Part shown: positions 780-64,000 of the stretch, piece by piece
Numbering within the stretch: the first letter of the stretch is position 1
Layout: each line of letters starts with the position of its first letter
Origin: Helicobacter marmotae
GTDB taxonomy: Bacteria > Campylobacterota > Campylobacteria > Campylobacterales > Helicobacteraceae
Assembly (NCBI RefSeq): GCF_003364255.1
Contig: NZ_NXLR01000004.1
Location: forward strand, 1-64,000
DNA length: 64,000 nucleotides
Direction: 5' to 3'
The notes under the pieces: generated by a model
Database searches by the model: none
What the model was told of the DNA's origin: nothing
What the model saw: only the letters and a program-made list of their open reading frames with translations
Made by a program: the position numbers and the translations under genes

Positions 780-3020
780 ATGAAACAACATACTCCAAAC
801 AAAGGTATGCGCGTGGCTCTAAGCCTTGCCTTAATCAGTGCGCTTGGTATCACAGGCACACTCGCAGATACGCTTCCTCTTAGCGCAACAAGCGAAGATT
901 TAACGGGGGGGGGGGATAATGTAAGAAGTGTGAATCTTGGTCGCTCCGTGGTAAGTGCTACAGGGTATGAGCAAGATATTAAAGACGCTCCAGCTTCTAT
1001 AGCCATTGTTCCTAGAGAAGAAATCCTAACTCGCCCTATTAGAGACTTAGGTGATGCAGTGCAAGATATTCCCGGTGTGTATGTGGAGTCCTCTAAAACA
1101 GGGGGTAATACCATATCTATGCGCGGACTTGGCTCTGCTTATACATTGATCCTTATAGATGGCAAACGTCAAAATGTCGCACAAGGCTTTGATAGCAATG
1201 GCTTTAATGGGACTTTTGCTTCATTTATGCCTCCAGCAAGTATGATCGATAGAATCGAAGTCATTCGAGGACCTGCCTCTATCATCTATGGAAGTGACGC
1301 TATGGGAGGGGTTATTAATATCATCACAAAAAAGCACAGCGATACCTTTACTTCGGGCATACAAGTAGAGACAGATTTAGCAGAGCATTCTAATACCTTT
1401 GGTCATCAATATGGAGCTAATGCCTATGCCAATATCCCATTTATCAAAGATATGCTTTCTTTAAACATTAGAGGAGGCTATAAGCAAGGGGATCAAAATG
1501 CTTTCTATAAGCCCGGCTTTGGTCCGCATTCTCCCGTTGTGCAAGGCACAAATAACCCCTATCTAGGCTGGAGTGCAGCGGCATATACCAACTGGAATGC
1601 AGGCGGACGGATAAACTACACGCCGAACAAAAACAACTATATTTATTTAGATTCTGAAGTGTATTTTGCTCGAGCAGGGACGCTTAATACCTCAGGAAAT
1701 GCCATTGGTGCGATACGAGACTTTTATAAATTTAATAATGTCCTAAGCCATGATGCAAACTATGACTGGGGGAAGCTTAGCTCCTATATCCAATATAGCC
1801 AAACCCAATGGGCACCGCATGCACAAAATGGGCTAAGCAGCGGGGTAAGCCCGGGAGCTAAAAAGGGTGATAGCGTTGATTGGAGTCAGGCACGATATAA
1901 TCGCGACTTGGTCTTTCAAAGTGCGTATATGAATGACTTTGACTTTGGCGGGGCGGGAAGCCTCATCTTCAATGGTGGGCTTTATTACCTCTGGGAGGAG
2001 CTAGAGACAAAAAACACAGGCTATAAAGGGCATATGAATCAAGTGGCAGTCTTTGCTGAAGGGGAATACCTCATCAACCAATATCTCTCTACCACATTAG
2101 GCTTACGATACAACTATAGTGATATATTCCAAGCTATTCCTAATCCGCGATTTTATGTGAATTACAACCCCACAGATTGGCTGACATTTAAAGCAGGGAT
2201 TGCTACAGGTGTGCTTGTGCCACAGCTTAGCTACCTCTATGATGGCTATACACTCTCCACCGCTAGAGGTAGTAGTAGTACCACCACTGCGATTTATGGA
2301 AACAAAGACCTAGAGCCAGAGAGGAGTTTAAGCTATGAACTCAGCACGATAGTAGATAGTGAAAGTGCTATGCTGATACTCACAGGATTTTATACAAGCT
2401 TTAGTAATAAAATCTCAAGTGTTACAGGTATCCAAAAGGGTACTAGCATTGATGGCGTAGCATGTGACGCAGATACCGCTACAGAATGTACCTTTTATCG
2501 TAACCTTGATAGTGCGATGATTACAGGGGCAGAAGCCAGCCTTAAGGTAAAGCCCATTTATGGCATATCCTTAGATGCAAGCTATGGCTTTACTTACTCT
2601 AGGACGCTAGAGGCAAAAGAGGGGCAGGAGTATCTCGTAGGTGAGCCTGTGAATAATGTCCCCCGACATAAATTCACCATTAAGCCTACATATCAGTATA
2701 AAAACTTCAACGCCTATATCCGCTGGAGTGGGAATTATAAAACTCCAACTTCTGCTGTAGCTTCAAGCTCACTTGCTACAAGTGCTAGAGGTATTTTAGG
2801 GAATTTCTATAGAGACTATCAACTAGTGGATTTTGCCGCTACTTATAAGTTTAGCAAAGTCTTTGCCCTCACCTTAGCGGTAAATAACCTCCTCGATGTT
2901 GCCTTTTATGATGATTTAATCGCCTATTCGGGAAACAGAGGCACTACTTCCTATCTCAACCCTTATCAGAGAATCTTACCTAGCAGAAATTATTGGATAA
3001 GCTTTAGGGCTGATTTTTAA
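780..3020 (+). CDS. TonB-dependent outer-membrane receptor, phase-variable
   Basis: Encodes a 746-residue outer-membrane receptor of the CfrA/ferric-siderophore class, expected to import an iron chelate or similar ligand using TonB energy. A signal peptide covers about residues 1-30. The plug domain (about 55-185) includes SKTGG, RGLGSAYTLILIDGKR and the RGPASIIYGSDAMGG signature. A 22-strand-type barrel follows, ending in phenylalanine. Codons 43-45 lie in an 11-G tract just after the signal peptide. The frame is open at this length, so the gene is ON, but slippage would truncate it. A Fur-like dyad precedes it and a hairpin follows. The broken gene at 29259 is a clear paralogue. The ligand cannot be told from sequence. 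Confidence 0.93.
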   Translation: MKQHTPNKGMRVALSLALISALGITGTLADTLPLSATSEDLTGGGDNVRSVNLGRSVVSATGYEQDIKDAPASIAIVPREEILTRPIRDLGDAVQDIPGVYVESSKTGGNTISMRGLGSAYTLILIDGKRQNVAQGFDSNGFNGTFASFMPPASMIDRIEVIRGPASIIYGSDAMGGVINIITKKHSDTFTSGIQVETDLAEHSNTFGHQYGANAYANIPFIKDMLSLNIRGGYKQGDQNAFYKPGFGPHSPVVQGTNNPYLGWSAAAYTNWNAGGRINYTPNKNNYIYLDSEVYFARAGTLNTSGNAIGAIRDFYKFNNVLSHDANYDWGKLSSYIQYSQTQWAPHAQNGLSSGVSPGAKKGDSVDWSQARYNRDLVFQSAYMNDFDFGGAGSLIFNGGLYYLWEELETKNTGYKGHMNQVAVFAEGEYLINQYLSTTLGLRYNYSDIFQAIPNPRFYVNYNPTDWLTFKAGIATGVLVPQLSYLYDGYTLSTARGSSSTTTAIYGNKDLEPERSLSYELSTIVDSESAMLILTGFYTSFSNKISSVTGIQKGTSIDGVACDADTATECTFYRNLDSAMITGAEASLKVKPIYGISLDASYGFTYSRTLEAKEGQEYLVGEPVNNVPRHKFTIKPTYQYKNFNAYIRWSGNYKTPTSAVASSSLATSARGILGNFYRDYQLVDFAATYKFSKVFALTLAVNNLLDVAFYDDLIAYSGNRGTTSYLNPYQRILPSRNYWISFRADF
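905..915 (+). repeat. Poly-G tract (G11), contingency locus in TonB receptor
   Basis: Eleven consecutive G residues inside codons 42-46 of the receptor gene. The reading frame is intact at 11. Loss or gain of one G would shift the frame directly after the signal peptide. Tracts of this length are the usual phase-variation substrate in Helicobacter and Campylobacter. Confidence 0.9.
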
Positions 3021-61450: not shown

Positions 61451-64000
61451 ATGATAGAGAGCAATAATCTCAAAGAGGTATTAAAAATTTTAGGCTTTAA
61501 GCCCAAAGATTCAGACACAATCCCACATTCATCTCCAGCATCTCCAGCCCAGCCCATAACTCAACCCAATAATACACAAGTTTTAAGCGATGAGCTCAAC
61601 AGGGGGGGGGGCAGAACAAGACTTTATAGAGTTTATAAAGCATAATATTTTCATCAAATTTTTTAGCAAAGATACTTTCATAGAAGTAGATTTTAAAAGT
61701 GGGAGCATTGCTTATCCAAAAGATATGATAATAGAAAGCTCCACCACAAGCAATTTCTTGCAAAATGAAAATTTTGTCGTGCTTGAATGCGTTTGTTCCT
61801 TGCTTGAAAAGGGCTATTTGGCAAGTGATTTAGCCTTAGAAAAAACTTGGACTTTAGGGCATAGTGGCAAAAGTGGAAGAGCAGACATTACTATTTACAA
61901 AGAAAATGACAAAAAAGACAAAGAAGTGTATTGTATCATCGAATGCAAGTGTGCGGGCAAAGAATACGAGCAAGCCAAAAGAGATTTAGAAAACAACAGC
62001 TTGGGCAAACAGCTTTTTTCTTACGCAGCTCAAGCTAGAAGCGTGGAGTATCTAGCACTTTATGCGAGTGATTTAGAAAAAAATTGCATTAAAAGATATG
62101 AAACAACCTTGCGTTTTAAAGATGATAAAAACATCTTAGATTTAAGCAAGAAAGATGATAGTTTGCTCACTTTTGAAGCCGCAAGTGAGGCAAAAGACTT
62201 TTTCCGTGTTTGGGAAGAAACGTACAACAAACAAAGTTTTAGCGATATTTTATTTAGCTCAAAAGCTTATGAAATTGGCGTAAAACCGCTTTTAAAAAAA
62301 GATTTAAAGCCTTTCAACAAAGAAGATGGCATTAACATCAAATTCAAAGAAATCCTAAGGCACAACAACATCAGTGATAAAGAAAATGCTTTTAATAAAC
62401 TCCTAAACCTCTTCCTTTGTAAATGTGTTGATGAGCAAAGCAAAAATGATAATGAAGAGCTAGATTTTCAATACAAAAGCTTTAGTGATGATTATTTTAG
62501 CCTTTATGAGCGTATTTTTAAGCTTTTCATTAAAGGAATGAATGAGTTTTTAAAAGAAGAGGTCTATAAAACCAAAGATAATTTCATCGCAAATGCCATA
62601 GCCTCCTACACAGGCAAAAATCGCAAAGTTTTACAAAAAGAGCTAGAAAAAGAGATTCAAAAAGCTACGCTTTTTTCTTCTAACGCCTTTTCTTTTAAAG
62701 AAACGCACAATGAAAACCTTTTCAATCAAAATGGCAAAATTCTCGTTGAAATCATACAGCTTTTTAGCCCTTATAAAATTTCTTATTCAAGCAAAGAGCA
62801 GTTTTTAGGTGAGCTTTTTGAGCAGTTTTTGAATGAGGGCTTTAAAGAAGATGAGGGGAGGTATTTTACGCCTATTCCTATTACTCGCTTTATTTGGAAT
62901 GCCTTGCCTTTTGAGAATTTTATACAAAATTCAAAGCTTCCTAAAGTGATTGACTTTGCTTGTGGTTCAGGGCATTTTTTAACCGAAGGTGTGAGTGCCT
63001 TAAGCGAATACCTTAAAAACACGCTCGAACCTAAAGAAGATGAAGAAATTTCAAAATTTTTTTACGGCATTGATAAGGACAATCGCCTTACCCGCACCAC
63101 TCAAGTAGCAATGCTTTTAAATGGTGCAAATAAGGCTAAGATTAGAGCCATTGACGGCTTAGAATACAATGCAGATTTTTACGGAGATAAGCAACAAGAC
63201 TTTGACATTCTGGTTTCAAATCCGCCTTATTCTGTGAAAGATTTTAAGCAACATTTAAGTAGAAATATCCTCAAAGCCAAAGAGCCATTTAAGGAATTTA
63301 AAGTCCTAGAGCATATCAGCTTAAATTCTAAAGCCATAGAAAATGTATTTGTCGAGCGACTTACTCATTTATTAAAGCCAAATGCCCTAGCAGCTATCAT
63401 TTTGCCTAGCTCCATACTCTCAAATACCGACCTAGCCACCATTACCACAAGAGAGATTTTACTTCAAAATTTTGCTATTGTGTCTATCGTTTCTTTTGGG
63501 AATCAAACCTTTGGCACAACGGGCACAAACACCATAGTTTTGTTTTTGAAAAGATTTAATGAGCCACCTATAAAAACCGAGCTTATAAAAGATAGCATAG
63601 AAGCAATTTTAAACGCTGAAAATTTACAAGATTTTGAAGATGAAGTGCTTTTTAAAGCGTATTTAAAAACCTTAAAACTAGATTTTAAGCTCTATGAAGA
63701 CTTTTTAGCAGAAAATGAATCTTGCTTAGAAAATGAGTATTTTAAGGCTTATTATAAAGATTTTTTAGATTCTAGTGAGGCAAAGGCTCTAAATAATTCC
63801 AAAGCCTTTAAAGAGTCTAGCCAAGAAGAAAGGCAAAAACAGCTTTATCATAAATTTTTTAGCCAAGCTAAAGCAAAAGAAAGAGAAAAATTAAGTATCT
63901 TTGCTCTCACTTTCAAGCAAACTACCCTTATCATCAACGCCCCAAGCGAGAATGCTGAACAAAAAAGATTTTTAGGCTACACCATAAGCCAAGCCAAAAA
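61451..64000 (+). CDS. Phase-variable restriction-modification enzyme, OFF, 3' end outside the window
   Basis: Opens with MIESNNLKEVLKILGFKP, reaches a G10 tract (61602-61611), and in the present frame stops at 61645. One base shorter (or two longer) it continues without a stop to the window end: GAEQDFIEFIKHN and onward. The N-terminal nuclease part has GKSGRADITIY and IIECKCAG (PD-ExK-like, about residues 135-165). The adenine-methylase part has VIDFACGSGHFL (about 500) and SNPPYSVKDF (about 589). This is a single-chain type I/IIG-like enzyme, like phase-variable ones in Campylobacter. ATG start with GGGTAGAG upstream. Codon use is very A/T-rich. The end is not visible. Confidence 0.8.
61602..61611 (+). 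repeat. Poly-G tract (G10) controlling the restriction-modification gene
   Basis: Ten consecutive G residues. Frames before and after it do not match: the upstream frame ends in NRGGGRTRLYRVYKA, and the downstream frame opens at GCAGAACAAGAC. A count of 9 or 12 would join them. The gene is thus OFF in this sequence. Confidence 0.9.

Follow-up and report, generated by a model that had tools for sequence, protein, structure and literature searches.

Does the restriction-modification gene that runs off the end of this stretch of DNA only switch on and off, or can it also change the target that it recognizes? The window, by which we mean the whole stretch analysed (64,000 bases), comprises positions 1-64000 of contig C44 (122,641 bases) in a draft genome of 1.96 Mb and 61 contigs. 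The original prediction described a single-chain restriction-modification enzyme with an ON/OFF switch, and possibly a phasevarion in which switching would alter the expression of many genes; its view stopped at the window edge, beyond which lies the 3' half of the gene with a GA tract and the recognition domains (TRDs). The whole gene (61451-66455, + strand) extends 2.5 kb beyond this edge and is followed on its 3' side by a urease cluster, as read from the open reading frames. Our analysis makes it quite probable that the gene encodes a single-chain Type IIG enzyme on the AloI/CjeI/TstI plan, which carries three recognition domains and two slipping repeats that act as an ON/OFF switch and a specificity switch.

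Gene anatomy and enzyme class

The anatomy of the gene, its frames and its tract positions are read directly (Table 1), as is their conservation among relatives.

Table 1. Features of the gene on contig C44 (positions above 64000 lie beyond the window)
Feature	Position	Strand	Evidence
Gene portion inside the window	61451-64000	+	Frames, ORF lists
N-terminal leader frame MIESNNLKEVLKILGF..., conserved start of the family	61451-61601	+	Six other relatives have a matching start motif 5' of their G tract
Long-frame ATG immediately 5' of the tract, possible weak start at G10	61590-61592	+	ORF list; use as start inferred
G10 tract, probable ON/OFF switch; its present length puts it out of frame with ATG 61451	61602-61611	.	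Frame simulation G7-G14; homologous tracts
Nuclease motif D...E-x-K (IIECK)	61884-61949	+	Invariant D99, E118, K120 in eight relatives
N6-adenine methylase domain	62796-63566	+	PF02384, E=3.9e-28; invariant motifs
Methylase motif I, FACGSG	62952-62972	+	
Methylase motif IV, NPPY	63219-63230	+	
TRD1	64272-64730	+	PF01420 Methylase_S
TRD2	65187-65696	+	PF01420 Methylase_S
(GA)13 tract, predicted specificity switch, encodes Glu-Arg repeats, now in frame	65760-65785		
TRD3, made only with the GA tract in frame	65949-66395	+	PF01420 Methylase_S
Stop codon	66453-66455	+	

The nuclease motif IIECK and the methylase motifs FACGSG and NPPY, on which the original prediction was built, are present, and the catalytic residues D99, E118, K120, D455, G459, G461, N544, P545, P546 and Y547 (long-frame numbering) are invariant in an alignment of eight relatives. 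Pfam identified three Methylase_S (PF01420) stretches, while its HSDR_N_2 match to the nuclease region falls below the cut-off, and PADLOC matched the protein to REase_MTase_IIG (E=2.5e-272). Pfam, PADLOC and the motifs thus support the predicted single-chain restriction-modification enzyme.

The N-terminal PD-(D/E)xK nuclease and the gamma order of the N6-adenine methylase (motif I, motif IV, then TRD) within one chain agree with the AloI/CjeI/TstI plan. The single-chain Type IIB enzymes AloI, PpiI, TstI and CjeI, members of a class that cleaves on either side of a bipartite site, likewise combine a nuclease, a gamma-class adenine methylase and Type I-like TRDs, but they comprise ~1250 aa with two C-terminal TRDs, and no switch is described for them in the literature searched. 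The present enzyme has three TRDs and 1667 aa, and is therefore described as a variant on this plan and not as a plain member. Its recognition domains are fused in one frame, in contrast to the separate S subunit gene of BcgI-like enzymes, and they match PF01420 Methylase_S and HsdS structures instead of an MmeI-like recognition domain.

The N-terminal G tract

Frame simulation confirmed that the G10 tract separates a short N-terminal frame from a long one, and that the two join at 9 or 12 G. At G10, the frame that begins at ATG 61451 meets a stop after 64 codons; G9 gives a protein of 1667 aa and G12 one of 1668 aa, whereas G7, G8, G11, G13 and G14 all terminate within 65 codons. A downstream frame closed by stops once the missing 3' end was added had been named as grounds for abandoning the prediction. 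On the real contig, the long frame past G10 runs for 1621 codons without a stop and is open to position 66452, so these grounds fall away.

The gene therefore has the hallmark of repeat-driven phase variation, a long repeat in the coding region whose length sets the reading frame. Runs of at least 10 G or C occur twice in the window, against 0.02 expected under a first-order chance model. A tract of G10-G15 lies at the equivalent site in seven homologs with a matching start (the present gene counted), two of them ON and five OFF, and it is preceded by the conserved start MI..[DEN]N[LF]...L..LGF or a close variant. These homologous tracts lend good support to the view that the G10 tract probably acts as an ON/OFF switch.

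The further claim, that the gene had been caught OFF, holds as a likelihood, given the frame broken at G10, but not as a certainty: ATG 61590, which is in the long frame, precedes the tract, and the G10 length is one snapshot, possibly with a sequencing error, because the assembly is a draft. Initiation at this ATG would produce a 1621-aa enzyme at G10, in which case the gene would not be off and the tract would tune expression or the N-terminus. We regard this as possible though unlikely. The codon lies 12 bases 5' of the tract, its product would be 46 aa shorter, and the relative G080 likewise has a long-frame ATG right at its tract; however, no clear ribosome-binding site is visible upstream by eye, the lost 46 aa contain the conserved start motif of the family, and three other OFF relatives have no such ATG. 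It is quite improbable that G10 is a sequencing or assembly error and that the gene is ON. Homopolymers are prone to error and the draft assembly is in 61 contigs, but the anatomy is unaffected by such an error and the tract is long enough for slippage in either state. Finally, the G10 frameshift could represent a fixed loss of function in a decaying gene, with the repeats as neutral leftovers. The frame is indeed broken in the assembly and extra stops occur in some relatives; among the 14 three-TRD relatives, the enzyme body is interrupted by frame breaks in three (G020, G049 and G070), and a further frameshift lies inside TRD3 of G022, so some copies may be decayed. Nevertheless, the present gene retains 1621 stop-free codons past the tract and intact catalytic residues, and the homologous tract is in frame in two relatives; we judge plain gene decay to be very unlikely.

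Long G tracts also occur elsewhere in this genome. A G11 run at window positions 905-915 lies inside a 746-aa outer-membrane receptor-like ORF (780-3020), ~42 codons past its start and now in frame, and this ORF is likely another switchable gene. Genome-wide (G000), there are 367 overlapping matches to nine G, corresponding to ~130 tracts by extrapolation from the listed places, and the overlapping nine-G matches number 193-770 per genome across all 11 genus genomes.

A GA tract before the third recognition domain

ON/OFF switching as the sole switch becomes unlikely once the whole gene is analysed, since a second repeat, (GA)13, lies between TRD2 and TRD3 and had been overlooked. It is the only tract of at least six GA units in the genome. 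In frame simulations, a gain of one GA unit leaves a protein of 1451 aa and a loss of one unit a protein of 1446 aa, whereas a change of three units in either direction preserves full length. The GA-shifted form would thus carry two TRDs in ~1450 aa. Its end falls ~60 codons past the second copy of the conserved IPLPPL region that follows each TRD (CR; the second copy is CR2), near the natural end of the two-TRD relative L042, 47 codons past its own second copy. Hpy99XIV has the same arrangement, with an additional C-terminal recognition domain after its second repeat. Because a one-unit change in a tract at this position would truncate the protein, the gene is probably a specificity switch through (GA)13 as well as an ON/OFF switch.

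Structural comparisons place the tract at a domain boundary. In a sequence alignment to the HsdS structure 1yf2, it lies past the end of the first conserved region and before the next TRD begins. For TRD2-tract-TRD3, an AlphaFold model built from a 38-row alignment reached a pLDDT of 78.9 and a pTM of 0.70; in this model the conserved-region helix stops at residue 235 and the next helix starts with the tract, with moderate confidence there. The model matches complete HsdS subunits, best 1yf2 (TM 0.62/0.68), and TRD2 and TRD3 can therefore be read as an HsdS-like pair joined by the switch. A single-sequence AlphaFold model of the three-TRD part had a pLDDT of 35 and was discarded.

Substitution patterns and domain identities suggest that TRD3 is both kept and exchanged. 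The dN/dS ratio is 0.11-0.26 for TRD3 pairs or for TRD3 against the matching TRD2, including pairs with one copy out of frame, although these values are approximate, synonymous sites being nearly saturated in several pairs; the close pair G050/G046 is an exception, with a TRD3 dN/dS of 0.71. By this measure, TRD3 is under purifying selection, with values of 0.12-0.22, even between an out-of-frame copy and an in-frame copy. The present TRD3 shares 74% identity with TRD3 of G080 and 72% with TRD2 of G022, TRD2 of G019 shares 87% with TRD3 of G044, and the enzyme body is ~80% identical between the present gene and G085 while most recognition-domain segments are far less so. Judged by these identities, TRD sequences swap positions between species, and domain movement of this type has been described for H. 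pylori (PMC3077401).

These data bear on whether the gene is a plain ON/OFF phase-variable Type IIG gene, with TRD3 and its GA tract as passengers that have no effect on specificity. The N-terminal tract is clear and conserved, and two TRDs are enough for the known AloI/CjeI enzymes. However, the GA tract stands at the TRD2/TRD3 junction, +138 to +147 nt past CR2, in 14/14 three-TRD relatives (Helicobacteraceae) and in no two-TRD relative; moreover, purifying selection appears to keep TRD3, its sequences act as TRD1 or TRD2 in other species, and in two H. pylori precedents a repeat before an extra TRD alters the motif. We therefore consider it unlikely that TRD3 is a passenger, and favor the specificity switch.

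Under the two-switch reading, slippage of the N-terminal G tract would turn synthesis of the enzyme on or off. When the gene is ON, slippage of the GA tract would decide whether the chain ends after TRD2, like the ordinary two-TRD relatives, or continues to TRD3. Type I-like recognition domains work in pairs, so TRD3 could pair with TRD1 or TRD2, and the bipartite target would then be changed or added to, as shown for JHP1422. Our inference is that the tracts slip in the present strain and that the two forms, both active, methylate different motifs. One gene would then have at least three heritable states (off, two-TRD and three-TRD), and surveys that score such genes as only ON/OFF, or as broken, would overlook a specificity switch.

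Repeats in relatives and in known systems

The survey covered 128 homologous loci with a recognizable conserved region, obtained from family, order and species-level genome collections. An alignment query gave matches in the genome-collection contigs, for which an earlier single-protein query had given none; a search of the plasmid collection gave no match. The collections hold one genome per species, and the variation in tract length is thus seen between species. GA tracts of the relatives range from GA5 to GA14, and 8 of the 12 examined in detail are in frame and 4 out of frame. Across six gastric-type relatives of genus group g2, which share 72-95% identity in their flanks, the tract varies from 9 to 14 units.

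G tracts are strongly enriched at domain boundaries. In 539 kb of homolog gene sequence, there are 36 runs of at least 8 G against 1.4 expected: 8 at the N-terminus, 2 at the methylase/TRD1 boundary and 26 at the TRD1/TRD2 boundary, so that 34/36 lie at the N-terminus or between TRD1 and TRD2 (128 homologs, several phyla). Within one 36-nt window, 24/26 of the TRD1/TRD2-boundary runs are found, where 0.012 would be expected. Relatives are not independent samples, and therefore these counts are not probabilities of independent events. The TRD1/TRD2 poly-G tract is present not only in the Helicobacter order but also in homologs that carry the labels Bacteroidota, Actinomycetota, Bacillota, Planctomycetota and Pseudomonadota, although labels of metagenome-assembled genomes may err. 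On a tree of the enzyme body (FastTree, with several long branches), the TRD1/TRD2 G tract requires 17 changes and the GA tract 9, showing that neither simply descends with the body from one origin; among these changes, gains, losses and domain exchange are indistinguishable.

Taken together, we lean toward a model wherein a dinucleotide repeat exactly at a module boundary toggles the enzyme between two and three TRDs, and hence between DNA motifs, on top of ON/OFF switching, and wherein boundary repeats (N-terminus, methylase/TRD1, TRD1/TRD2 and TRD2/TRD3) are a general design of the family across several phyla. If so, the same logic could be read directly from the genomes of many bacteria. 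It would also provide a natural test of how one catalytic unit serves several TRDs in AloI/CjeI-like enzymes, for which the stoichiometry is unexplained and the working has been called a mystery (PMC3874165); TstI is a homotetramer (PMC4027205).

Precedents in H. pylori (Hpy99XIV, HpyUM032XIII and JHP1422) indicate that the switch principle is already known. The Type IIG enzymes JHP1272 (Hpy99XIV) and HP1353-HP1354 (HpyAXVI) carry two homopolymer repeats: the first is an ON/OFF switch, and through the second the enzyme gains a C-terminal recognition domain and a different motif, as determined by SMRT sequencing (PMC3936762). They resemble the present gene in having two repeats in one single-chain enzyme, but they are ~1071 aa long with the first repeat in frame and have an MmeI-like recognition domain and two homopolymer tracts, where the present gene has three Type I-like TRDs and a dinucleotide tract. 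In HpyUM032XIII, a BcgI-like Type IIG enzyme, a poly-G tract that separates two Type I-like TRDs switches the one-TRD motif CYAN7TRG to the two-TRD motif CYAN7TTC (PMC4450513). As predicted for the present gene, a repeat between TRDs is the switch, although the S subunit is separate, the tract lies between TRD1 and TRD2, and there is no third TRD. JHP1422, the S subunit of the Type I system JHP1422/JHP1423, has three TRDs in one chain, like the present gene, and its TRD3 pairs with TRD1 or TRD2 to yield two motifs (PMC3936762); M and S are separate in that system, TRD2 and TRD3 are identical, and no repeat switch is reported between them.

Other systems share single elements. The shortened one-TRD S subunit of NgoAV yields a symmetric motif, a similar change of target by TRD number, but in a Type I system with separate subunits. 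Cj0031 of C. jejuni is a poly-G ON/OFF Type IIG enzyme, as the present one probably is, and methylation and gene expression differ between its two states (PMC4889913); it has one tract, one predicted TRD and no specificity switch. Against this background, the three-TRD single chain with a predicted GA specificity switch appears to be new. The open-licence literature searched contains no report that describes a single-chain enzyme with three TRDs, a specificity switch formed by a GA tract or the TRD1/TRD2 tract as a family-wide pattern, an absence in that literature which is not proof of novelty.

A poly-glycine linker is disfavored as the reason for the TRD1/TRD2 G tract, as tract-less homologs are mostly without glycines there; this is not a full exclusion. 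The two methylase/TRD1-boundary tracts, G13 at L045 5069 and G15 at L049 4854 (reverse complement), mark a further switch position in two relatives, and in G042 the TRD1/TRD2 boundary holds 33 consecutive G (L073 4921-4953, reverse complement). In G000, contig C1 holds two opposed single-TRD specificity genes (68271-68774, +, and 71315-71809, -; locus L199) with a common 30-base inverted repeat, which are possibly an invertible pair. Two specificity-gene fragments at contig ends, the start of C6 and the end of C19 (L200 and L197), share the same conserved region, and thus a repeated gene probably broke the assembly there.
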